Positions 14,266 through 58,425 of a DNA stretch of 64,000 nucleotides are shown here, one piece after another. A program made the translations under genes and the position numbers. The notes under the pieces were generated by a model that ran no database searches, had not been told where the DNA came from, and was given only the letters and a program-made list of their open reading frames with translations. The first letter of the stretch is position 1. Each line of letters begins with the position of its first letter. This DNA comes from Nocardioides albertanoniae (GTDB lineage Bacteria; Actinomycetota; Actinomycetes; Propionibacteriales; Nocardioidaceae), in NCBI RefSeq assembly GCF_006716315.1, contig NZ_VFOV01000001.1, positions 2,248,501 through 2,312,500 of the forward strand. Direction: 5' to 3'.

Positions 14266-14377
14266 GCCGCGAGGCCGCCTGCGGCCGAGCGTGTCGAAAC
14301 CAACACAGTCCGATCCCGATTGTTCGCACTGTGTTGGTCTCGACACGCCTCCGCCTTGCGGCTCCGGCGGCTCGACC
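14260..14377. repeat. 118-bp imperfect inverted repeat between xylB and pgsA
   Basis: The left arm begins GGTTGAGCC (14260-14268, covering the xylB stop) and the right arm ends GGCTCGACC (14369-14377). Inner perfect arms are ACCAACACAGT (14299-14309) and ACTGTGTTGGT (14328-14338) around an 18-nt loop. Between these, GTGTCGAAA pairs with GTCTCGACAC-like bases. The element could fold into one long hairpin and serve as a terminator. From memory, similar 'ggttgagcc...gtgtcgagacc' elements recur in Nocardioides intergenic DNA; only one copy is in this window. Confidence 0.65.
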
Positions 14378-27228: not shown

Positions 27229-27345
27229 CTCTGGGCCGCGCAGCGACGCGGGTGAGATGACCTGAGCCCTGCTCGGGGTATCTCCGTGCGGGTTCGGGGT
27301 GCTTCACCGATGTGGGCCCCGCTGCACCGCCCCAGGATGACGTAC

Positions 27346-28845
27346 ATGACCTTTCACCTCGTACGTCCCCTGGCAGCTGTCGCGATCGCGGTGATGATCG
27401 CGAGCCTCAGTGCGCCCGCCGCGACCGCGGCAGCTCTCCCAGAACGATCCGACCGGCCGCCGACGCCACACCTCGACTGGACTCCGTGTCCGGACGCGCC
27501 CGACGCCGACTGCGCCACGCTGGAGGTGCCGGTCGACTGGTCTCAGCCGAAGGGGGAGACCTTCGAGCTCGCCGTGGCGAGACACCGGGCGACCGATCCA
27601 GACGCCCGGGTGGGGGCGATGGTCTTCGGCCCGGGCGGCCCCGGCGACTCGGGCGTCGAGCGGATCACGACCGGGATCGACCGGTTCAGCGAGCGGTTGC
27701 AGGCGCGCTTCGACATCGTCAGCTTCGACCCGCGCGGTGTCGGCGCGAGCAGCCCGCTGCGATGCTCGGCCGACCTGGTCGCCCAGATGCCTCCCGTCGT
27801 GATGCGCGACGAGACCGCCTTCGAGTCGATGAGGACCTTCGCCGGTCGCCTCCGCGCCGACTGCCGCGAGCACACCGGCCCGGTCTATGAACACATGAGC
27901 ACCCTCGACACCGTGCGCGACCTCGAGGCGCTGCGCCGAGCGCTCGGCGAGCCCCGGCTGACGTTCCACGGGTCGTCCTACGGCACCCTGCTCGGACAGC
28001 AGTACGCCGCGGCCCACCCCCATCGCGTCCGGGCGATGGTGCTCGAGAGCGTCAACGACCACAGCCTCGGCGCGCGCCGGTTCCTCGACGGCTCCGCACG
28101 GGCCGCCCAGGACACGTTCGACGAGTTCGTGACCTGGTGCCATCGCGATCAGGAGTGTCCGCTGCGCGACAGCGACGTCAACGCTCTGCTCCGCGACCTG
28201 GTGCAGCGCGCGGAGCGCGGTGAGCTGAGCGACCCCGACGACCCGCACCGAGCCCTGACTCCTTATGACCTGACCTTCACCGAGGTCCAGCGCCGGCTCT
28301 ACGATCCCGAGCGCCGACCCGAGCTCGCCGCACGCCTCGCCGCGCTGGCGGCCGCGCCCGAGCCGACCGCCGGCACGGGGGAGCGCGCGGGCCAAGGCGG
28401 CGCGGGCGAGGGCAGCGCGGGTGCGGTGATCCCGCTCCCGATCCCGATCTTCTGCAACGACTGGGAGATGCAGCCGTCGAGCTACGCCGACTACGAGCGC
28501 ACCCTGGAGCGGATGCGAGACCGCGCCCCCGACCTGCCCTACCCCGGCGCTCTGATCGCTCCGGCGCTCTGCCTCGGCGCGCCGCCCGCGGCCAACCCCC
28601 AGCGTCCGATCGACGTCGCTCCGGGGGCGCCGATCCTGCTGGTCAACTCCCGTCACGACCCGGCGACGCCCCACGCCTGGGCACAGAGCCTCGAGCGGAA
28701 GCTACGCGGCCGCGGCGTGCTGCTCACCTACGAGGGCTCCGGCCACGGCGCCTACACCAGCAGCCCCTGCGTGGAGCGCATCGTCGACGCCTACCTCATC
28801 GACGGCGAGGTGCCGCCCCGCAACGCCTCGTGCCCCACCACCTGA
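27346..28845 (+). CDS. Secreted alpha/beta-hydrolase peptidase (tripeptidyl aminopeptidase type)
   Basis: This protein of about 499 residues has a Sec signal (LAAVAIAVMIASLSAPAATAA) and is exported. The fold is the proline-iminopeptidase/SlpD-like alpha/beta hydrolase. HLDWTPCPD opens the mature part, and DCATLEVPVDWSQPKG and GGPGDSGV (oxyanion region) are conserved. The nucleophile is predicted as Ser211 in GSSYGT, the acid as Asp438 in NSRHDPATP and the base as His467 in GSGHGAYT, within the TAP-like C-terminal domain. The start is uncertain: ATG 27346 is preferred (AGGA about 8 nt upstream), with 27337 nine bases earlier. Family members release tripeptides from protein N-termini outside the cell. 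A repeat element follows the stop by 2 bp. Confidence 0.85.
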   Translation: MTFHLVRPLAAVAIAVMIASLSAPAATAAALPERSDRPPTPHLDWTPCPDAPDADCATLEVPVDWSQPKGETFELAVARHRATDPDARVGAMVFGPGGPGDSGVERITTGIDRFSERLQARFDIVSFDPRGVGASSPLRCSADLVAQMPPVVMRDETAFESMRTFAGRLRADCREHTGPVYEHMSTLDTVRDLEALRRALGEPRLTFHGSSYGTLLGQQYAAAHPHRVRAMVLESVNDHSLGARRFLDGSARAAQDTFDEFVTWCHRDQECPLRDSDVNALLRDLVQRAERGELSDPDDPHRALTPYDLTFTEVQRRLYDPERRPELAARLAALAAAPEPTAGTGERAGQGGAGEGSAGAVIPLPIPIFCNDWEMQPSSYADYERTLERMRDRAPDLPYPGALIAPALCLGAPPAANPQRPIDVAPGAPILLVNSRHDPATPHAWAQSLERKLRGRGVLLTYEGSGHGAYTSSPCVERIVDAYLIDGEVPPRNASCPTT

Positions 28846-28847
28846 AC

Positions 28848-28970
28848 CGAGTCGGCTCGTCCTGACCCCAAACCACGCCGAGTCGGCTCGTTATAACGAG
28901 CCGACTCGGCGTACAAAACGGTCAGGACGAGCCGACTCGAGCTCGATCCGTGTCAGGAAGAGCCGGGTCG
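28848..28970. repeat. Symmetric A-B-A' intergenic repeat, copy 1 (convergent junction)
   Basis: Unit A CGAGTCGGCTCGTCCTGACC (28848-28867) and its exact inverse complement A' (28920-28939) flank a 38-bp perfect palindrome B (28875-28912, centred on TTATAA). Spacers of 7 bp separate B from A and A'. A degenerate extra A'-like unit follows at 28952-28970. It fills the gap between the peptidase gene and the convergent DUF349 gene and could terminate transcription from both sides. Two further copies occur at 46441-46532 and 56508-56599. Confidence 0.85.
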
Positions 28971-28978
28971 GCGCGGGG

Positions 28979-30217
28979 TCAGCTGAAGTCGTCGGAGGCG
29001 CGCTTGGCCATGTCGAGGAACTGGCGGCGCGAGTCGAGGTTCTCCTCGAGGCTCTTGACCTTGCGGTCGTCGCCGGCGGCACGGGCCTTGTCGAGGTCCT
29101 TCTCGACCTGGGCGATGGCCTCTTCGAGCTTGGCGATCATGTCGTCGGCACGGGCCGACTTCTCCGGGTCGGACTTGCGCCACTGGTCGTCCTCGGCCGC
29201 CTTGATGGCCTGCTCGACCTTGCGCATCGCGCCCTCGAGCTCCTTGATCCGGTCACGGGGCACCTTGCCGGCCTCGTCCCAGCGCTCGGCGATCGCGCGG
29301 AAGGAGCGCTTGATCCCGTCGAGGTCGTCGCCCTTCTCCACCAGCGGAAGCAGCTCCTGCGCCTCGACGAGCAGCCCCTCCTTGACCACGGCGTTCTCCG
29401 CGAACTCCGCGTCCATGGCGGCGTTGGCGGCGTCGCGGGCACCGAAGAAGACGTCCTGCGCCGCGCGGAACTGCTTCCAGAGCTTGTCGTCGACATCCTT
29501 GGGAGCCGGTCCGGCGGCCTTCCAGTCGCGCATCAGGTCGCGGTAGCGCCCAGCGGTCGGGCCCCACTCGGTCGAGCCGGAGAGCTGCTCGGCCTCGACG
29601 ATGATGCGCTCCTTGATGACCTTGGCGTCGTCACGGCGGGCGTTGAGCTCGGCGAAGTGAGCCTTGCGGCGTCGCGTGTAGGCCGTGCGGGCCGTCGAGA
29701 AGCGCCGCCACAGCGCGTCGTCGGAGGCGCGGTCGATGCGGGGGAGCGCCTTCCACTGGTCGAGCAGCTCGCGGAGCCGGTTGGCGCCGTTGCGCCAGTC
29801 GTTGCTCTGCGCCAGCTTCTCGGCCTCGCCGACGAGCGCCTCCTTGGCGACCTTCGCCTCGGCCGCCTTGGCCGCGCGCTCGACCTTGCGGGCCTCGCGC
29901 TGGGTGGCGATGACGGGCGCGAGCGCGTCCAGGCGTGCCACCAGCGACCCGAGGTCGCCGACGGCGTTGGCCCCGGTGACCTTCTCCGAGACGGTCTTGA
30001 CCGCCGCGGTCGCCTCGTCCGGCGACGTCTTGCCCGCATGCACACGTCGCTCGAGCTGCTCGACCTCGAAGGCGAGCTGGTCGAAACGGTTGGTGAAGAA
30101 CGCGAGAGCCTCCTCCGGCGTACCTTCGGGGTACTGCCCCACAGAGCGTTCCCCGTCAGCGGTCTTCACGTAGACCGTTCCGTCGTCCTCGACCCGACCC
30201 CACTGCTCGCTGGTCAC
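28979..30217 (-). CDS. DUF349-domain coiled-coil protein
   Basis: This 412-residue cytoplasmic protein opens MTSEQWGRVEDDGTVYVKTADGERSVGQYPEG. It then carries several repeats of the DUF349 type, Trp-centred helical units of about 70 residues (for example SNDWRNGANRLRELLDQWKALPRIDRASDDALWRRF and GSTEWGPTAGRYRDLMRDWKAAGPAP). It ends in a long charged helix likely to form a coiled coil. GTG 30217 is chosen; it gives the conserved N-terminus, and upstream codons are unlike the family. Function is unknown. It is divergent from the MBL-fold gene and convergent with the peptidase across the A-B-A' repeat. Confidence 0.85.
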   Translation of the reverse strand: MTSEQWGRVEDDGTVYVKTADGERSVGQYPEGTPEEALAFFTNRFDQLAFEVEQLERRVHAGKTSPDEATAAVKTVSEKVTGANAVGDLGSLVARLDALAPVIATQREARKVERAAKAAEAKVAKEALVGEAEKLAQSNDWRNGANRLRELLDQWKALPRIDRASDDALWRRFSTARTAYTRRRKAHFAELNARRDDAKVIKERIIVEAEQLSGSTEWGPTAGRYRDLMRDWKAAGPAPKDVDDKLWKQFRAAQDVFFGARDAANAAMDAEFAENAVVKEGLLVEAQELLPLVEKGDDLDGIKRSFRAIAERWDEAGKVPRDRIKELEGAMRKVEQAIKAAEDDQWRKSDPEKSARADDMIAKLEEAIAQVEKDLDKARAAGDDRKVKSLEENLDSRRQFLDMAKRASDDFS

Positions 30218-30392
30218 AATGTCCCTACTCTTCGGTTGAGGCGCTAGCCTCTTATGAAATCTCCCCCGCCGGAGGTCGCGATCGCTCGCGGTCCCGGTCG
30301 GCTCAAACTGCAGGTCCCGATGTGTCCCGGCACACCTCGGGGTGCCCATCGTAGTCAGAGACCACGATGCGGCGCTGCACAGTCCCGCTGGA

Positions 30393-45060: not shown

Positions 45061-46404
45061 GTGGATGGGTTGTTTGAGATGGGGACCGGCTCCGGCGCCA
45101 CGCGCGGCGGGTCGCTGAGCCACAGCGACCACGCGGCTGCGCCGCTGGCGGTGCGGATGCGGCCGCGTACGCTCGACGAGCTCGTCGGGCAGAGCTCGCT
45201 CAAGGAGTCGGGGTCGCCGCTGCACCAGGTCGTGGAGGGCGGTCAGTCGCTCTCGCTGCTGCTCTGGGGGCCGCCGGGCACCGGCAAGACGACGATCGCC
45301 TCGATCGTGAGCCGCTCCACCGACCGGCGCTTCGTGGAGGTCTCCGCCGTCTCGGCCGGGGTCAAGGAGGTGCGGGCTGCGATCGACGCAGCCCGGGCCG
45401 AGCTCGTCGCGACCGGCAAGGAGACCGTGCTCTTCGTCGACGAGGTGCACCGTTTCAGCAAGGCGCAGCAGGACGCGCTGCTGCCGGGCGTGGAGAACCG
45501 CTGGGTCACGCTCGTCGCAGCCACCACGGAGAACCCGTTCTTCTCGGTCATCTCGCCGTTGCTCTCGCGCTCGCTGCTGCTGCGGCTGGAGTCGCTGACC
45601 GACGACGACATCCGCGGCGTGCTCGGTTCGGCTCTCGAGGACGAGCGTGGCCTCGGTGGCGAGGTGACGATCTCCGAGGACGCTCTCGACCACCTCGTAC
45701 GCCTGGCCGGTGGCGACGCACGCAGGTCGCTGACCTACCTGGAGGCGGCCGCGGGGGCGGCCTCAGGAGGGGAGATCACTCTGGAGGCGGCCGAGCGGGC
45801 CGTCGACCAGGCGGCGGTGCGCTACGACCGGCAGGGCGACCAGCACTACGACGTGGTCAGCGCGTTCATCAAGTCGGTGCGCGGCTCGGACGCCGACGCG
45901 GCGCTGCACTATCTGGCGCGGATGATCGAGGCGGGGGAGGACCCGCGGTTCATCGCTCGCCGACTGATGATCCTCGCCTCCGAAGACATCGGCCTGGCCG
46001 ACTCGACGGCCCTGCAGACGGCCGTCGCCGCGGCGCAGACCGTGCAGCTCATCGGCATGCCCGAGGCCCAGCTCACCCTCGCCCACGCCACGATCGCGCT
46101 CGCCGTGGCCCCCAAGTCGAACGCCGTCACCACCGCCATCTTCGCGGCCCGCGCCGACGTCACCGCCGGCAAGATCGGCAACGTGCCCCCGCACCTGCGC
46201 GACGCCCACTACGAAGGCGCCAAGAAGATCGGGCACGGCTCGACGTACAAGTACGCCCACGACGAGCCGTTCGGCATCGCGACCCAGCAGTACGCTCCCG
46301 ACGCCGTCGCCGACGCGGCCTACTACCAGCCCACCACCCACGGTGCCGAGGCCTCGATCAAGGAGCGCTGGGAGAAGGTGCGCGGCATCGTCCGCGGCAC
46401 CTGA
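45061..46404 (+). CDS. rarA: Replication-associated recombination protein A (RarA/MgsA AAA+ ATPase)
   Basis: This 447-residue AAA+ protein acts at stalled forks. The N-terminal region has [17 protein letters not shown], Walker [11 protein letters not shown], Walker [11 protein letters not shown] and sensor [11 protein letters not shown]. The C-terminal clamp-loader-like and tetramerisation domains include [70 protein letters not shown] and [13 protein letters not shown] 45061 is taken from the promoter spacing; ATG 45067 is an alternative start. A position just before alaS is conserved in actinobacteria. Confidence 0.95.
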
Positions 46405-46409
46405 TCCGC

Positions 46410-46532
46410 CGAGTCGTCTCGTTCTGACACAAACCCGGGCCGAGTCGGCTCGTCCTGACACGAAATTGCGCCGAGTCGGCTCGTTCTAACGAGCCGACTC
46501 GGCGCTGAATGTGGTCAGGACGAGCCGACTCG
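46410..46532. repeat. Symmetric A-B-A' intergenic repeat, copy 2 (tandem genes)
   Basis: A (46441-46459) and A' (46514-46532) are exact inverse complements over 19 bp. B (46468-46505) is a 38-bp palindrome with 18-bp perfect arms and a CT centre; spacers are 8 bp each. An extra degenerate A-like unit (CGAGTCGTCTCGTTCTGAC, 46410-46428) stands upstream, 5 bp after the rarA stop. Here the flanking genes are in tandem, unlike the other copies. Confidence 0.85.
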
Positions 46533-46591
46533 ACGGGTGTGGGCGTTGCCGTGCGCGGGGTTGCCTGCGTGGGGCTATAAGGTTTGGGGCG

Positions 46592-50629: not shown

Positions 50630-52124
50630 CAGGTACAACACCCCGAACCCACGCGACCCTCGTCGTCCCGGGCCCGGGGCACGCCCTGGGCCGTACGGCC
50701 GCGACCCACGCGGTTACCCGTCTCGCGCGCAGGACCCGCGGCAGCTGCCGCCCCAGCAGCAGGGTCAGCAGCGTCCGCCGATGCCGGGCCAGATGCCGGG
50801 CCAGCAGCCGCCCATGCAGCCTGGCCTGCGTCCGCCGCCGCGACCGGGCCGTGCTGCCGCGCCGCACCCCGGTCTCGGCACGCCTCCGCCCGGATACGCC
50901 CAGGCGGTGCCGCCCCGGCGATCCGACTACGGCGGACCCGCCTATCAGCAGCACCCCGGCTTCCTCGACGGCGGTCCCGGCTTTCCCGAGCAGCAGGAGC
51001 CCTACTTCGAGGGCAAGCCCCCCAAGCGCAAGCGCCGCTTCGGTGGCTGCCTCGCCGTGCTGGTGGCGCTGGCGGTCATCCTCGGTGGGGTCTACGTCGC
51101 CGGCGACCGTGCGATCGACTACATCAAGGACAAGGTCGCCCCGCCGGCCGACTATGCCGGACCCGGCACCGACCCGGTCTCCTTCGAGGTGCACCAGGGT
51201 GACTCGGTCTCGGCGGTCGGCCGCAACCTGAAGGATGCGGGTGTGGTGGAGTCGGTCGACGCCTTCATCGACGCCGCCAACACCGAAGGGCTCAGCGTGC
51301 AGGTCGGCTTCTACCCGTTGAAGAAGGAGATGAAGTCGGCCGACGTCGTCGAGATCCTCGCCAACCCCGACAACATCGACACCGTCAACCTCACCATCAC
51401 CGAGGGGTCCCGCGCCAAGGCGATCTACAAGGCCCTGGCGAAGAAGACCGGCAAGAAGCCTGCGGAGTTCAAGAAGGCCGCGGAGGACACCGAGGGCATC
51501 GGGCTGCCCGACTACGCGGGCGGCAACGTCGAGGGTTATCTCTTCCCCGCGACGTACGCCTTCCCGCCCGACGCGACGCCGACCGAGATGCTCGCGATGA
51601 TGGTCGACCGGTGGGAGCAGGCGCTCGGCGACAACGACATCGAGGCGCGCGCCAAGCAGCTCAAGTGCGGCGATGGCAAGACGTGCACACCGGAGCAGAT
51701 CATGACCGTGGCCTCGCTCGTGCAGGCCGAGGGGAGGGGCACGGACATGCCCAAGATCGCCCGGGTGATCTACAACCGGCTCGACCCGAAGGTCGACGAC
51801 GGGGCGACCAACGGCACCCTCGGGATCGACGCCTCCAACGCCTACGGCGTGAACAAGTCCGGCACGACCGCGCTCACCCCGGCCGAGCTGGCCAAGGACA
51901 CCGACTACGACACCCGACGGAAGTCCGGCCTCCCGCCGACCCCGATCGGGTCGCCCGGTGACGAGGCCATCGAGGCGGCGCTGAAGCCGGCCGAGGGCGA
52001 CTGGCTCTTCTACGTCACGGTCAACCTCAAGACCGGCAAGACGAAGTTCGCCAAGACCCATGACGAGTTCTTGAAGTACAAGGCGGACTACGAGGCCTAC
52101 TGCAAGAAGTCCGAGGCCTGCTGA
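50622..52124 (+). CDS. mltG: Endolytic murein transglycosylase MltG (YceG family)
   Basis: This 500-residue membrane-anchored enzyme cleaves nascent glycan strands. Residues 1-138 are cytoplasmic and very rich in Pro, Gln, Arg and Gly, an extension absent from E. coli MltG. The membrane helix is CLAVLVALAVILGGVYVAG (about 142-162). Outside, a LysM-like subdomain (VSFEVHQGDSVSAVGRNLKDAGVV) precedes the catalytic domain. The catalytic Glu is predicted as E370 in TVASLVQAEGRG, followed by VIYNRL and LPPTPIGSPG. ATG 50622 follows GAGG and overlaps ruvX; the stop shares a base with aroE. Confidence 0.94.
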   Translation: MSDRYNTPNPRDPRRPGPGARPGPYGRDPRGYPSRAQDPRQLPPQQQGQQRPPMPGQMPGQQPPMQPGLRPPPRPGRAAAPHPGLGTPPPGYAQAVPPRRSDYGGPAYQQHPGFLDGGPGFPEQQEPYFEGKPPKRKRRFGGCLAVLVALAVILGGVYVAGDRAIDYIKDKVAPPADYAGPGTDPVSFEVHQGDSVSAVGRNLKDAGVVESVDAFIDAANTEGLSVQVGFYPLKKEMKSADVVEILANPDNIDTVNLTITEGSRAKAIYKALAKKTGKKPAEFKKAAEDTEGIGLPDYAGGNVEGYLFPATYAFPPDATPTEMLAMMVDRWEQALGDNDIEARAKQLKCGDGKTCTPEQIMTVASLVQAEGRGTDMPKIARVIYNRLDPKVDDGATNGTLGIDASNAYGVNKSGTTALTPAELAKDTDYDTRRKSGLPPTPIGSPGDEAIEAALKPAEGDWLFYVTVNLKTGKTKFAKTHDEFLKYKADYEAYCKKSEAC

Positions 52125-54867: not shown

Positions 54868-55403
54868 CGTCGCAGGGTGTGCGCCCGGCCGTCGTGCTCG
54901 TCGGCCCGATGGGTGCCGGGAAGTCGACCGTCGGCGCGCTGCTCGCCACGCGTCTCGGGGTGGCGCTGCGCGACACCGACGAGGACATCGCGAAGGCGGC
55001 CGGCAAGAGCGTCCAGGACATCTTCGTCGACGAGGGCGAGGCCCACTTCCGTGAGGTCGAGGCCGACGCCGTCGCCGCGGCGCTCGCCGAGCACGACGGT
55101 GTCGTATCCCTCGGTGGTGGTGCCGTGCTGGCCGATCAGACCCGGATCCTGCTCAAGGAGCACACCGTGGTCTACCTGCGGGTCGGCGTCGCGGACGCGG
55201 TCAAGCGTGTCGGGCTCGGTTCGGGGCGGCCGATGCTGCTGGGCAACGTACGCGGCCGCATCAAGACGCTCCTGGAGGAGCGCGCGCCGATCTATGAGTC
55301 GATGGCGAGCTTCGTCGTCGACACCGACAACCGGCCGGCGACCGAGGTCGCCGACGAGATCGCCGCGGTGTTCGGCGAGCAGAAGACGGAAGAGGATCGA
55401 TGA
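54864..55403 (+). CDS. aroK: Shikimate kinase
   Basis: This 179-residue kinase phosphorylates shikimate at O3. The P-loop GPMGAGKST lies at residues 14-22. DTDEDI (substrate/metal Asp) and FREVEADAV (substrate Arg) follow, with VSLGGGAVL (Walker B-like GGG) and the lid region [24 protein letters not shown] 54864 overlaps the aroC stop and the end overlaps aroB, so the three enzymes are translationally coupled. The short acidic C-terminal tail (EQKTEEDR) is unremarkable. Confidence 0.97.
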
Positions 55404-56497
55404 ACGAGACCGTCATCCGGGTGGAGAGTGCCGCTGCCTACGACGTGGTCATCGGCACCGCGCTCGCCGCGCGTCTGCCTGACCTCCTGGGCGACAAGGT
55501 GCAGCGGGTCGCGTTCCTCTACGCCGCCGAGCTCGCCGAGCAGGCCGAGCCGATCCTCGAGGCGCTGCTCAAGCACTACGACGTGCTCGGCCTGGGTCTG
55601 CCCAGCGGTGAGGACCAGAAGACCGTCGCGGTCGCCGCCGACTGCTGGGAGGCGCTGGGGGAGAAGGGCTTCACCCGCTCCGACGCGGTCGTCACCTTCG
55701 GCGGCGGCGCGACCACCGACCTCGGTGGGTTCGTCGCGGCCGGCTGGCTGCGCGGCGTACGCGTCGTGCACATCCCGACCACCGTGCTCGCCACGGTCGA
55801 CGCCGCGGTCGGCGGCAAGACCGGCGTCAACACCGCCGCCGGCAAGAACCTGGTCGGCGCGTTCCACGAGCCTGCCGGCGTGCTGTGCGACCTCGCGCTG
55901 CTCGGCACCCTTCCTCGGGAGGACCTGGTCGCGGGGCTCGGTGAGGTCGTCAAGTGCGGTTTCATCGCCGACCCGGAGATCCTGCGTCTGATCGAGGCGA
56001 CGGACGAGATCACCGCCGCCTCGCCGGTCCTTCCCGAGCTGATCGAGCGTGCGATCCGGGTCAAGGCCGAGGTGGTCGCCGCCGACCTGAAGGAGACCGG
56101 CGGCTCCGATGGCCACCCCGGCCGCGAGACGCTCAACTACGGACACACGCTCGCGCACGCGCTCGAGAAGCACTCCGGCTTCTCGATCCGCCACGGCGAC
56201 GCCGTCGCCGTCGGCTGCGTCTACGCCGCCGAGCTCGCCCGCCTCGCCGGGGTGCTCTCCGACGAGGTCGCCGCCCGGCACGCGCCCGCCTTCGCCAAGG
56301 TCGGCCTGCCGACCACGGTCAAGGAGCTCGGCCTCGAGGCCGGCTTCGACGACCTCATCGGCGCCATGCGGGTCGACAAGAAGGCCCGCGGCTCCGTGCT
56401 CCGCTTCCTCGTGCTCCACGACCTCGCCGTCCCGCGCATCCTCACCGGGCCGACCGAGGAGCAGCTGCGCGAGGCGTACGCGGCCGTGTCTGTCTAG
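55400..56497 (+). CDS. aroB: 3-Dehydroquinate synthase
   Basis: This 365-residue NAD- and metal-dependent enzyme makes dehydroquinate from DAHP. Motifs include GLPSGEDQKTV, VTFGGGATTDLGGFVAAGWLRGVRVVHIPTTVLATVDAAVGGKTGVNTAAGKNLVGAFHEP and the metal ligands in ETLNYGHTLAHALEKHSGF with IRHGDAVAVG. Two more residues in FDDLIGAMRVDKKARG complete the active site. ATG 55400 overlaps aroK. The A-B-A' repeat begins 10 bp after the stop and separates it from the convergent acyl-CoA dehydrogenase gene. No aroA is in the window. Confidence 0.97.
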   Translation: MNETVIRVESAAAYDVVIGTALAARLPDLLGDKVQRVAFLYAAELAEQAEPILEALLKHYDVLGLGLPSGEDQKTVAVAADCWEALGEKGFTRSDAVVTFGGGATTDLGGFVAAGWLRGVRVVHIPTTVLATVDAAVGGKTGVNTAAGKNLVGAFHEPAGVLCDLALLGTLPREDLVAGLGEVVKCGFIADPEILRLIEATDEITAASPVLPELIERAIRVKAEVVAADLKETGGSDGHPGRETLNYGHTLAHALEKHSGFSIRHGDAVAVGCVYAAELARLAGVLSDEVAARHAPAFAKVGLPTTVKELGLEAGFDDLIGAMRVDKKARGSVLRFLVLHDLAVPRILTGPTEEQLREAYAAVSV

Positions 56498-56507
56498 ACC
56501 CTCCCGC

Positions 56508-56599
56508 CGAGTCGGCTCGTCCTGACCGAAAACATCGCCGAGTCGGCTCGTTACAACGAGCCGACTCGACGCGAAGATCGGTCAGAACGAGCCGACTCG
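56508..56599. repeat. Symmetric A-B-A' intergenic repeat, copy 3 (convergent junction)
   Basis: A (56508-56527) is identical to A of copy 1 over 20 bp. A' (56580-56599) is its inverse complement with one change. B (56536-56571) is a palindrome with 17-bp arms, one mismatch and an AC centre. Spacers are 8 bp on each side, as in copy 2. It fills the 115-bp gap between aroB and the convergent acyl-CoA dehydrogenase gene. Confidence 0.85.
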
Positions 56600-56612
56600 G
56601 CGATGTCTCAGG

Positions 56613-57770
56613 TCACAGACCCATGTCTTTGGCGATGATCAGCTTCATCACCTCGGAGGTGCCGCCGTAGATGCGGTTGACGCGGTTGTCGGCGTAGAGA
56701 CGGGCGATGGGGTATTCGTTCATGTAGCCGTAGCCGCCGTGCAGCTGCAGGCAGCGGTCGACGACGCGATGGGCGACCTCGGTGCAGAACAGCTTGGCGG
56801 AGGCGGCCTCGGCGGCGCTGAGCTCGCCGAGGTCCTCGGCCTCGATGGCACGGTCGACGACGGCCTGCGCCGCATCCACCTCGGCCTTGCACGCGGCCAG
56901 CTCGAACTTGGTGTTCTGGAACGAGGCGACCGCGGTGCCGAAGACCTTGCGCTCGGCGACGTACGCCTTGGCGAACTCGACCGCGGCAGCGGCCTGCGCG
57001 TAGGCGCCGACGGCGATGCCGAGACGCTCGACCGGGAGGTTCTGGCCGAGGTAGGAGAAGCCCTTGCCGACCTCGCCGAGCACGTCCTCGACCGGCACCA
57101 GCACATCGGTGAAGGAGAGCTCGGCGGTGTCGGAGACCTTCAGGCCGAGCTTGTCGAGCTTGCGGCCGACCTCGTAGCCCGCCAGCTTGGTGTCGACGGC
57201 GAGCAGCGTGATGCCCGCCCGGCGGTCCTCGGGGGTGGAGGGCGCCGTGCGGGCGCAGACGATCACCCGGTCGGCGTTGACGCCGCCGGTGATGAACGTC
57301 TTGGCGCCGTTGAGCACGTAGTGGCGACCGTCGTCGGTGAGCTTGGCGTTGGTCGTCATGCCGGCCAGGTCGGAGCCGGTGCCCGGCTCGGTCATCGCGA
57401 TCGCCCACATCTCCTCACCGGAGACGAAGCCCGGCATCCAGCGCTCCATCTGCTCCTTGGTGGCGAGCTTGAGCAGGTAGGGCAGGCAGAGTCCGACGTG
57501 GGTGCTCGACCCGCCGAAGGAGACACCGGCGCGGGAGAGCTCCTCGGTCATGATCGCCGAATACTTGAACGACTCGATCCCGGCCCCGCCGAACTCCTCG
57601 GGCACCTGGATGCCCCACACACCGAGCTCGCCCAGCTTGAGATAGAAGTCGTGGGGGACGATGCCGGCTTCGTACCACTCGTCGTAGACGGGCACGACCT
57701 CCTTCTCGATGAAGGAGCGGATGGTCTCGCGGAAGGACTGGTGGTCTTCGGTGTAGACGGTTCGGCGCAT
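56613..57770 (-). CDS. Acyl-CoA dehydrogenase (long-chain/isovaleryl-type)
   Basis: This 385-residue FAD enzyme introduces the alpha-beta double bond in acyl-CoA thioesters. Family motifs are WAIAMTEPGTGSDLAGM and LNGAKTFITGGVNAD, then RKVFGTAVASFQNTKFELA, LQLHGGYGYMNEYPIARLYADNRVNRIYGGTSEVMK. The usual catalytic Glu of short/medium-chain enzymes (YEGT) is Gly here (YGGT). As in long-chain and isovaleryl enzymes, the base is probably the Glu in VEFAKAYVAERKVFG. ATG 57770 (AGGAAGAAG upstream) is preferred; the open frame to 57860 covers low-complexity codons. It follows the tetR gene by 49 bp on the same strand, so it is probably under its control. Confidence 0.92.
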   Translation of the reverse strand: MRRTVYTEDHQSFRETIRSFIEKEVVPVYDEWYEAGIVPHDFYLKLGELGVWGIQVPEEFGGAGIESFKYSAIMTEELSRAGVSFGGSSTHVGLCLPYLLKLATKEQMERWMPGFVSGEEMWAIAMTEPGTGSDLAGMTTNAKLTDDGRHYVLNGAKTFITGGVNADRVIVCARTAPSTPEDRRAGITLLAVDTKLAGYEVGRKLDKLGLKVSDTAELSFTDVLVPVEDVLGEVGKGFSYLGQNLPVERLGIAVGAYAQAAAAVEFAKAYVAERKVFGTAVASFQNTKFELAACKAEVDAAQAVVDRAIEAEDLGELSAAEAASAKLFCTEVAHRVVDRCLQLHGGYGYMNEYPIARLYADNRVNRIYGGTSEVMKLIIAKDMGL

Positions 57771-57819
57771 CTTCTTCTTCCTGTTTGTTGCGGTCGGGAT
57801 GCTGGGTCGGGATGCTGGG

Positions 57820-58425
57820 TCAGGGGCGGGCGCCGACGGCGCGGAGCGCGAGGTCGGCATAGAAGTCGGCGAGCGACTCGGGGGTCCAGGTGCCGCCGTC
57901 GCGATACCACCGGGCCAGGTCGATGCCGAGGGAGAGCAGGGCGGTGGCGGTCTTGGCGGGGTCGGGGGTGTCGAAGTCGCCGCTGCGTACGCCTTCCTCG
58001 ACGACCTCGCGCATGACGGTGTCGATCGCGCGGCGCAGCCCCGCGACCTCCCGGATGTGCTCGTCGGTCAGCGCGGCGAGCTCGTAGTTGATCACCCGGG
58101 CCGTCGTGTGGGAGCGGGCGTGGAAGAGCACATAGGTGCGTACGGCGGCCGCGACCCGCTCGGCCGGGGTGCCGTCGGCGCGCACCGCCTCGGTGAGCGC
58201 CTCGAGGATCACCTCGTGCCCACGCATCGCGATCGCGTGCAGCAGCTCCTCCTTCGAGCGGTGGTGCACGTAGACGGCCGCCGGGCTCAACCCAGCCGCG
58301 GTGGCGATGTCGCGGGTGCTGGTGCCGTGGAAGCCCTTGGCGGAGAAGGCCTGCACCGCGGCGTCGAGCAGACGGGCACGGCTCCGGTCGCCGCGGGCCT
58401 GGGTGCCGGTGCGTACCTCGTTCAT
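57820..58425 (-). CDS. TetR-family transcriptional regulator
   Basis: This 201-residue repressor has an N-terminal helix-turn-helix (GTSTRDIATAAGLSPAAVYVHHRSKEELL). The ligand domain has HARSHTTARVINYELAALTDEHIREVAGLRR, resembling regulators of fatty-acid or branched-chain acyl-CoA catabolism. ATG 58425 is chosen; a TTG at 58443 is also in frame. It is transcribed with, and upstream of, the acyl-CoA dehydrogenase gene and diverges from aroQ. A TAAG-N6-CTTA inverted repeat 22 bp upstream is a candidate operator for autoregulation. Confidence 0.9.
   Translation of the reverse strand: MNEVRTGTQARGDRSRARLLDAAVQAFSAKGFHGTSTRDIATAAGLSPAAVYVHHRSKEELLHAIAMRGHEVILEALTEAVRADGTPAERVAAAVRTYVLFHARSHTTARVINYELAALTDEHIREVAGLRRAIDTVMREVVEEGVRSGDFDTPDPAKTATALLSLGIDLARWYRDGGTWTPESLADFYADLALRAVGARP

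Follow-up and report, generated by a model that had tools for sequence, protein, structure and literature searches.

Three arrays of a 21-bp repeat unit lie in a stretch of 64,000 nucleotides of the Nocardioides albertanoniae genome (the window). We consider it fairly probable that they are solo members of a dispersed family within a two-part Nocardioides system, made up of the arrays and a resident gene. The first part would be an array of operator-like 21-bp units that face one dyad at whole-helical-turn spacing (31-32 bp, or 21-22 bp in some species). The second would be a resident gene, flanked by such arrays, for a putative protein that joins an AbiEi-like DNA-binding protein to a C-terminal Vsr/EDxHD-type nuclease fold. 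This protein may bind adjacent units along a single face of the DNA, as suggested by analogy with AbiEi proteins on inverted repeats, and its nuclease could spread or homogenise the arrays through cutting and repair. Such enzyme action and mobility would be modelled on what has been proposed for RAYT enzymes with repetitive extragenic palindromic (REP) elements, or on homing endonucleases with their own genes. A bidirectional terminator hairpin formed by the central inverted repeat may be the reason why arrays at 3' ends are tolerated, or are put to use. The features computed were the grammar of the arrays, their phasing, their position after stop codons, their flanking of the gene and, for one unit, a species-specific match between the gene flanks and dispersed copies.

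Array structure

The genome under study is designated G000; other G-numbers denote the Nocardioides genomes compared, and L-numbers the loci fetched. Its catalogue holds at least 68 arrays drawn from the matches listed, and the architecture counts refer to these 68. A single-unit cluster (L095) was dropped from it, as were four single units from relatives, and weak units were admitted to own arrays only when in phase (30-32 bp).

Each element is an array with a period of 31 bp, in which units of 21 bp alternate with 10-bp spacers and face a central dyad. All 68 arrays had the same order of right-pointing units (>), a single dyad and left-pointing units (<), and the architectures were >><< (29), >>< (11), >>><< (8), ><< (5), >< (4) and others (11). 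An arm contained 1 to 10 units, and unequal arms reached 1+4 or 2+10 units. Of 136 same-strand spacings, 134 measured 31 bp, and every array had a dyad offset of 16. When seed units alone (at most one mismatch) were considered, the spacing was 31 in 119 of 120 cases and 30 in one, and the dyad offset was 16 in 67 arrays and 46 in one. The unit consensus was GYCGAGTCGGC-KCRNY-CTGAC, followed by the 10-bp spacer with an A/T patch in its middle, 3-6 bases past GAC. The central palindrome (B) consists of two head-on units overlapping at the centre, and the same A/T patch is present in the spacers between outer units (A to A). In the longest own array, L054 (G000:C1:2154429), two right-pointing units were accompanied by ten left-pointing ones, and eight of its 31-bp repeats were identical, which suggests a recent tandem amplification.

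These results bear on a first-pass annotation of the window, which had described three copies of about 92 bp, each with a unit A and its inverse A' placed symmetrically around B. The copies were found again where it had placed them. The fixed symmetric design did not hold, as only 29 of the 68 own arrays are >><< and arms of 1+4 or 2+10 units occur. The array is variable and A-B-A' is one of its states; copy 1 has a fifth unit, and a third left unit was found in copy 2. The equal spacers read there (7/7, 8/8 and 8/8) shift with the palindrome ends chosen, the real constant being the 31-bp unit-to-unit distance. The view that spacer length is kept and spacer sequence is not was right as to length and not wholly so as to sequence, since the spacers share the A/T patch. 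That reading of the design had also missed the 31-bp phase and the gene carrying the same units.

The three arrays of the window

Array 1 (>><<<, 28846-28972) occupies a convergent junction between an alpha/beta-hydrolase gene (27286-28845, + strand) and a DUF349 gene (28979-30349, - strand). It contains A (28846-28866, +, no mismatch), B with the two head-on units and the centre TTATAA (28877-28910), A' (28921-28941, -, no mismatch) and a degraded fifth unit 31 bp past A' (28952-28972, -, 3 mismatches). Array 2 (>>><<, 46408-46534) lies at a tandem junction after an MgsA/RarA-like AAA gene (45061-46404, +) and consists of a third left unit (46408-46428, +, 1 mismatch), A (46439-46459, +), B with the centre TTCTAA (46470-46503) and A' (46514-46534, -). 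Array 3 (>><<, 56506-56601) is placed between convergent genes for 3-dehydroquinate synthase (55400-56497, +) and acyl-CoA dehydrogenase (56613-57860, -), with A at 56506-56526 (+), B with the centre TTACAA at 56537-56570 and A' at 56581-56601 (-). The convergent setting of copies 1 and 3 and the tandem one of copy 2, as previously described, were reproduced by our codon-score gene caller.

Unit matches at up to three mismatches numbered 14 in the window (B halves counted), against 0.42 expected from shuffles, and all 13 core matches at up to one mismatch fell inside the three arrays. A single long hairpin was predicted as the RNA fold of the window copies (z -9.3 to -14.7), which follows from the conservation of the units, and the window gave no Rfam match at gathering score. 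Elsewhere in the window, GGTCTCGACACGCCTCCGCC-like words at 14336-14355 and 50871-50890 resemble another dispersed repeat, which was found inserted at the MgsA junction of G131 and, in a less exact form, of G059.

Copy number and distribution

The suggestion that the three might be the only copies was contradicted by the complete genome, which contained 50 exact central palindromes and 76 at up to three mismatches (none for the reversed control), as well as 295 units at up to three mismatches (18 for the reversed-pattern control). An exact-B scan of contigs from 84,980 species gave 95 stretches. The 80 listed were all from Nocardioides (N. albus, N. luteus, N. turkmenicus, YR527 and a metagenome-assembled genome), and B-like palindromes at up to three mismatches were present in 11 of 196 Nocardioides genomes. 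The titles and abstract openings searched made no mention of such arrays, although most subscription papers were outside reach and absence from print is not established; the core string does occur in print, in six papers on other subjects. A separate dispersed family, the GTTGGTCGAGCAGCGAGGGCCGAAGGCTCGAGC...GAGACCC repeat or parts of it, was seen near gene ends in G012 and G085 (L194, L195, L197-L201, L233 and L234).

A gene flanked by the units

About 120 kb before the window, arrays at 2125453 and 2126574 flank a gene for a protein of 322 amino acids (L053:2075-3043). This single gene fills the L053 stretch between the two arrays, the part considered for an adjacent AbiEii (DUF1814) toxin gene. 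Pfam matched the protein to AbiEi_4 (E 7e-5; 23.2 bits, cut-off 25) and to REase_MTES_1575 (E 0.006; 17.1 bits, cut-off 38.2), and both domains are precomputed for many homologues, which are named in the sources "AbiEi family antitoxin domain-containing" or "hypothetical". The protein has the features of an AbiEi-like two-domain antitoxin, and its C-terminal part those of an EDxHD/Vsr-type catalytic-domain fold; a search of PDB sequences with it returned no chain at E<=1. The candidate catalytic residues D245, E256 and D258 were present in 39 of 40 homologues. H263 was nearly invariant in own-type proteins and, by eye, was K in several X-type proteins. Among the eight X-type loci, L266, L274, L276 and L299 were fetched for their hairpins, and L237, L239, L240 and L241 were obtained along with an unrelated gene.

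A match to the protein was found in 193 of 196 sampled Nocardioides genomes, and no homologue of the gene was found in the 400-kb sample or in the window. The fetched loci contained 13 homologues, of which 11 had arrays or hairpins on both sides and two (L193 and L231) on one side. For a genus-wide test, the 30 best homologues of the 196 genomes were picked by protein similarity alone. In the 22 genomes outside the array clade, the motif CGASYCGGC occurred on both sides of the homologue in 20 and on one side in two: in L321 the tested 5' stretch was still coding, and in L324 the 5' repeats read CGACCCGTC. Beside the control genes (acyl-CoA dehydrogenase, DUF349 and MgsA) it occurred on both sides in none of 47 cases and on one side in 13. 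The longest word common to both flanks reached at least 12 in 20 of 22 genomes, as compared with 2 of 47 controls (p=8e-10; L309 was omitted from the shared-word list).

The unit sequence varied by species, the words being common to both flanks of the gene. Gaps between units of less than 70 bp beside the 30 genes (109 in all) were mainly 32 bp (67), followed by 31 bp (8), 22 bp (8) and 21 bp (7); gaps of 31-32 bp and 21-22 bp equal three and two helical turns, respectively. Units pointing inward numbered 170 and those pointing outward 69, and many of the latter come from the palindromic core CGAGTCGGC(G), which matches both ways, while loci with the core CGACCCGGC had no or one outward unit.

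Species-specific units and a second hairpin family

The unit CGACCCGGCAGAAAGTGG, taken from the gene flanks of G208, was searched in 11 genomes at up to two mismatches. Matches numbered 197 in G208, those in the gene flanks among them, as compared with 82 in the sister genome G144 and none in the other nine, including G000; the reversed control gave one match in G000. Thirty G208/G144 loci yielded 23 clusters, 21 with a single dyad and inward units and two with same-strand units only; 18 were convergent and five tandem. Same-strand gaps were 32 bp in 61 of 64 cases, and dyad offsets of 29-31 (17), 40-42 (3) and 10 (1) differed by roughly one-turn steps. Repeat abundance followed the cognate gene for the G208 unit (one unit, 11 genomes), and did so imperfectly for B. 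In G134, G092, G010 and G014 (L227, L230 and L310-L313), a related hairpin GCCGAGTCGGCGCATCTGTCCC...GCCGACTCGGC with 32-bp phased units, unlike the B arrays of these genomes, was observed beside the homologous gene.

Hairpins of a second family, AATCCCCGGnnnnCCGGGGATT, were present at up to two mismatches in 123 of 196 Nocardioides genomes. The dyad symmetry of 36 such hairpins from 30 loci peaked at offset 31 (z 5.5, the highest of offsets 13-160), and pairs 62 bp apart were found in G076 (3) and G011 (2). Some of these hairpins flank one gene of about 330-390 amino acids related to the own 322-amino-acid gene. The own genome has two AATACCCGG-type hairpins, two mismatches from this second family, at L263 (G000:C1:791747) and G000:C1:3271784; another strong dyad lies 62 bp from the L263 hairpin. 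The AATCCCCGG-type hairpins found in much of the genus have neighbouring dyads 31 bp apart and flank a related gene. A wider proposal, which we hold only tentatively and at somewhat less than an even chance, is that these systems form a new class of intragenomic element, in which a resident homing-type nuclease with an AbiEi-like part for DNA binding would write, copy and homogenise helically phased operator arrays at gene 3' ends throughout the chromosome, protein and unit would coevolve rapidly among species, and the AATCCCCGG-type hairpins would be a second branch.

Position at gene ends and the terminator explanation

Gene orientation was assigned with the home-made codon-score caller. Out of 174 arrays (68 own and 106 from relatives), 165 could be placed, the other nine, all from relatives, being at contig edges. 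The placed arrays comprised 103 at convergent, 61 at tandem and one at divergent junctions, with none inside a gene, in agreement with the earlier proposals of a dispersed extragenic family and of a preference for convergent junctions. Arrays followed the stop codon at a median distance of 9 bp in convergent settings and of 7 bp in tandem ones, where the next start was 59 bp away. The array called divergent by the codon-score gene call is L068 (G000:C1:3849473). Within an evenly drawn 400-kb sample, 7 of the 68 convergent junctions, 3 of the 220 tandem ones and 1 of the 66 divergent ones had a member of the family.

This position right after stop codons, mainly convergent, is what would be seen if the elements were plain bidirectional intrinsic terminators, in which the B hairpin ends both convergent transcripts and the A units are by-products of terminator duplication. 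Several other observations favour such an explanation, which we nevertheless consider unlikely. A stem score of 10 was reached in 20 of 49 own convergent gaps of at least 15 bp, 7 of them belonging to the array family, as compared with 21 of the 136 tandem gaps and 5 of the 66 divergent ones. A further 13 convergent gaps contained near-perfect hairpins with other sequences; therefore, a hairpin at a convergent gene end is ordinary in this genome, and a repeated phased family is not. Unrelated perfect hairpins also stand at orthologous ends, namely at the DUF349 end in G010 and G131 and at the acyl-CoA dehydrogenase end in G059. The mean number of U residues in the 10 nucleotides after B was 3.15 in own arms with an A unit and 2.41 in arms without, near the 3-4 reported for Streptomyces terminators (PMC12207403). 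In two own convergent gaps, L213 (5657-5739) and L214 (12865-12942), a common word, AACGAACTTTCGTT, was noted inside an inverted repeat.

The two halves of B covaried in the own genome (n=68; positions 1, 11 and 15, p=5e-4, 6e-5 and 3e-4) and in the relatives (n=105; positions 1, 15 and 11, p=4e-5, 0.006 and 0.075), which again suits a terminator and makes bidirectional termination a plausible role for B, as had been proposed. In contrast, no covariation between A and A' was seen at the variable positions examined (own n=43; relatives n=52). B is therefore conserved as a perfect palindrome or a hairpin, and the A units evolve independently, behaving as individual DNA sites in helical phase. 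An RNA helix of A with A' under selection is disfavoured by this result. The terminator explanation leaves the missing A/A' covariation unaccounted for, together with the flanked gene, the strict 31-bp phase and the partnerless arms of arrays such as 2+10. Nor does it explain the equal arms at the 61 tandem sites, where A units numbered 53 upstream and 58 downstream, counts that also rule out arms unequal relative to transcription. Furthermore, most G208/G144 centres were not tight perfect hairpins but longer inverted repeats with an unpaired middle.

Turnover of sites and other explanations

Helical phasing, symmetric arms and an A/T patch in the spacer are also consistent with a host-serving array that binds a nucleoid or roadblock protein and marks convergent gene ends, with no nuclease-driven spread; we regard this as distinctly improbable. 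In its favour, arrays were found at orthologous gene ends for 26 of the 68 own sites (44 pairs in the fetched relatives), though the number of units had changed in 32 of the 44 pairs. At these sites, spacer bases differed at 279 of 540 positions (52%; 59% for unrelated spacers) and unit bases at 146 of 1134 (13%), and spacings were of equal length in 54 of 57 cases as compared with 4 of 29 for stop-to-array distances. The B centre read CATG in 26 of 44 copies from relatives and in 3 of the 44 own ones, a change affecting these sites throughout the species. Such rapid turnover of unit number and sequence stands against a conserved host role, which predicts stabler sites, as does the nuclease fold of the candidate protein.

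The window sites show the same turnover. Array 2 is missing from the MgsA junction of five close relatives (G134, G010, G092, G014 and G072), where the genes lie about 12 bp apart, and a different insert is present in G059 and G131. The DUF349 end, the site of array 1, has an array in G072, related hairpins and units in G134 and G092, B-like palindromes alone in G014 and G059, and the unrelated hairpins mentioned above in G010 and G131. At the gene end orthologous to that of array 3, the B palindrome was kept in G010 and G014.

Classical REPINs mobilised by a Y1 tyrosine transposase (RAYT) would share the palindromic, extragenic and dispersed character and the inverted pairs, but are very improbable, the Y1_Tnp family (PF01797) having no match in the own genome in a search that was positive in 5 of 14 control genomes. 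Equally hard to credit is a DNA uptake signal as in Neisseria and Pasteurellaceae, where inverted pairs form terminator hairpins and signals are generally reported at 1000 or more per genome (PMC1852404), because only 295 units were found at up to three mismatches, all 13 core matches of the window lie inside arrays and none of the 165 placed arrays is within a gene.

Several results weigh against the two-part system itself. The covariation of B could stem from palindrome-perfecting mutation, and one control comparison, of A with the far half of B, reached p=0.03 (relatives, position 1). The phase could have been copied along, not selected, although the saturated spacers argue against its being merely inherited by copying. 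Recurrent target-site duplications were absent at the 68 own arrays for k=6-9 and amounted to at most one at k=5; at k=3 the count was 4 of 68 at two offsets, where about 0.6 would be expected. The flanked gene looks mostly vertically inherited: its 3' neighbour was the same in 21 of 30 loci (by DNA pattern), and no phage or plasmid record covered 80% of it. The own gene has a complete >><< array, and not an inward half-array, on either side. The match of gene to array inside the array clade is also imperfect, as the 32-bp unit flanking the best homologues in G134, G010, G014 and G092 is related to the array unit but distinct from it, and no close homologue (best E 2.5e-32) accompanies the 20 B palindromes of G059.

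Comparison with known systems

The two alternatives offered at first, a protein-binding array and a REP-like module, both find support in the two-part system. In transposons such as Tn7, a gene-bearing unit has several inward-pointing transposase binding sites at each of its ends; the Nocardioides system differs in having no recurrent target-site duplication, a single gene and a mostly fixed location. Streptomyces-type intrinsic terminators are likewise described as long stable hairpins past stop codons with few U downstream (PMC12207403), whereas the Nocardioides elements are a repeated sequence family with phased flanking units. AbiEi, of the AbiE type IV toxin-antitoxin systems, is reported to be of the winged-helix type and to bind to inverted repeats within its own promoter, and the Streptococcus agalactiae protein to bend DNA (PMC7319586). 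The Nocardioides units differ from such operators in standing on both sides of the gene and being dispersed over the genome, and the protein in its nuclease-like C-terminal domain. EDxHD has been named as a homing endonuclease family (PMC6083498); unlike I-Bth0305I and Vsr, the Nocardioides protein is fused to an AbiEi-like part, its gene is bounded by unit arrays, and its cleavage is putative.

The closest likeness is to the REP/REPIN/BIME-RAYT systems ("REPtrons"), in which short palindromic extragenic repeats occur in tens to hundreds of copies and, as reported for RAYT (PMC2817692), the enzyme gene lies between inverted repeat copies matched to it, with cognate repeats dispersed. On the other hand, RAYT is a Y1 HUH enzyme, and the Nocardioides protein is AbiEi-like with a Vsr/EDxHD fold. 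BIMEs are described as alternating in orientation, and the Nocardioides units are phased by whole turns in centripetal arrays; the GTAG head reported for REPs (PMC3733652) was not seen in them. If the proposed system is true, a second, unrelated enzyme would occupy a REP/RAYT-like layout, and this would suggest more than one origin for partnerships between a resident nuclease and dispersed repeats. Within a large genus, the specificities of protein and DNA would seem to change in step, a protein type common in Nocardioides would gain a functional lead, and the origin of Nocardioides terminator-like repeats becomes testable. REPs and REPINs are already known with RAYT transposases, and what is different here is the unrelated enzyme and the phased arrays. 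The system is classed as REPIN-like in its working and not as a member, and it looks like a previously unrecognised counterpart of the known bacterial repeat-spreading systems.
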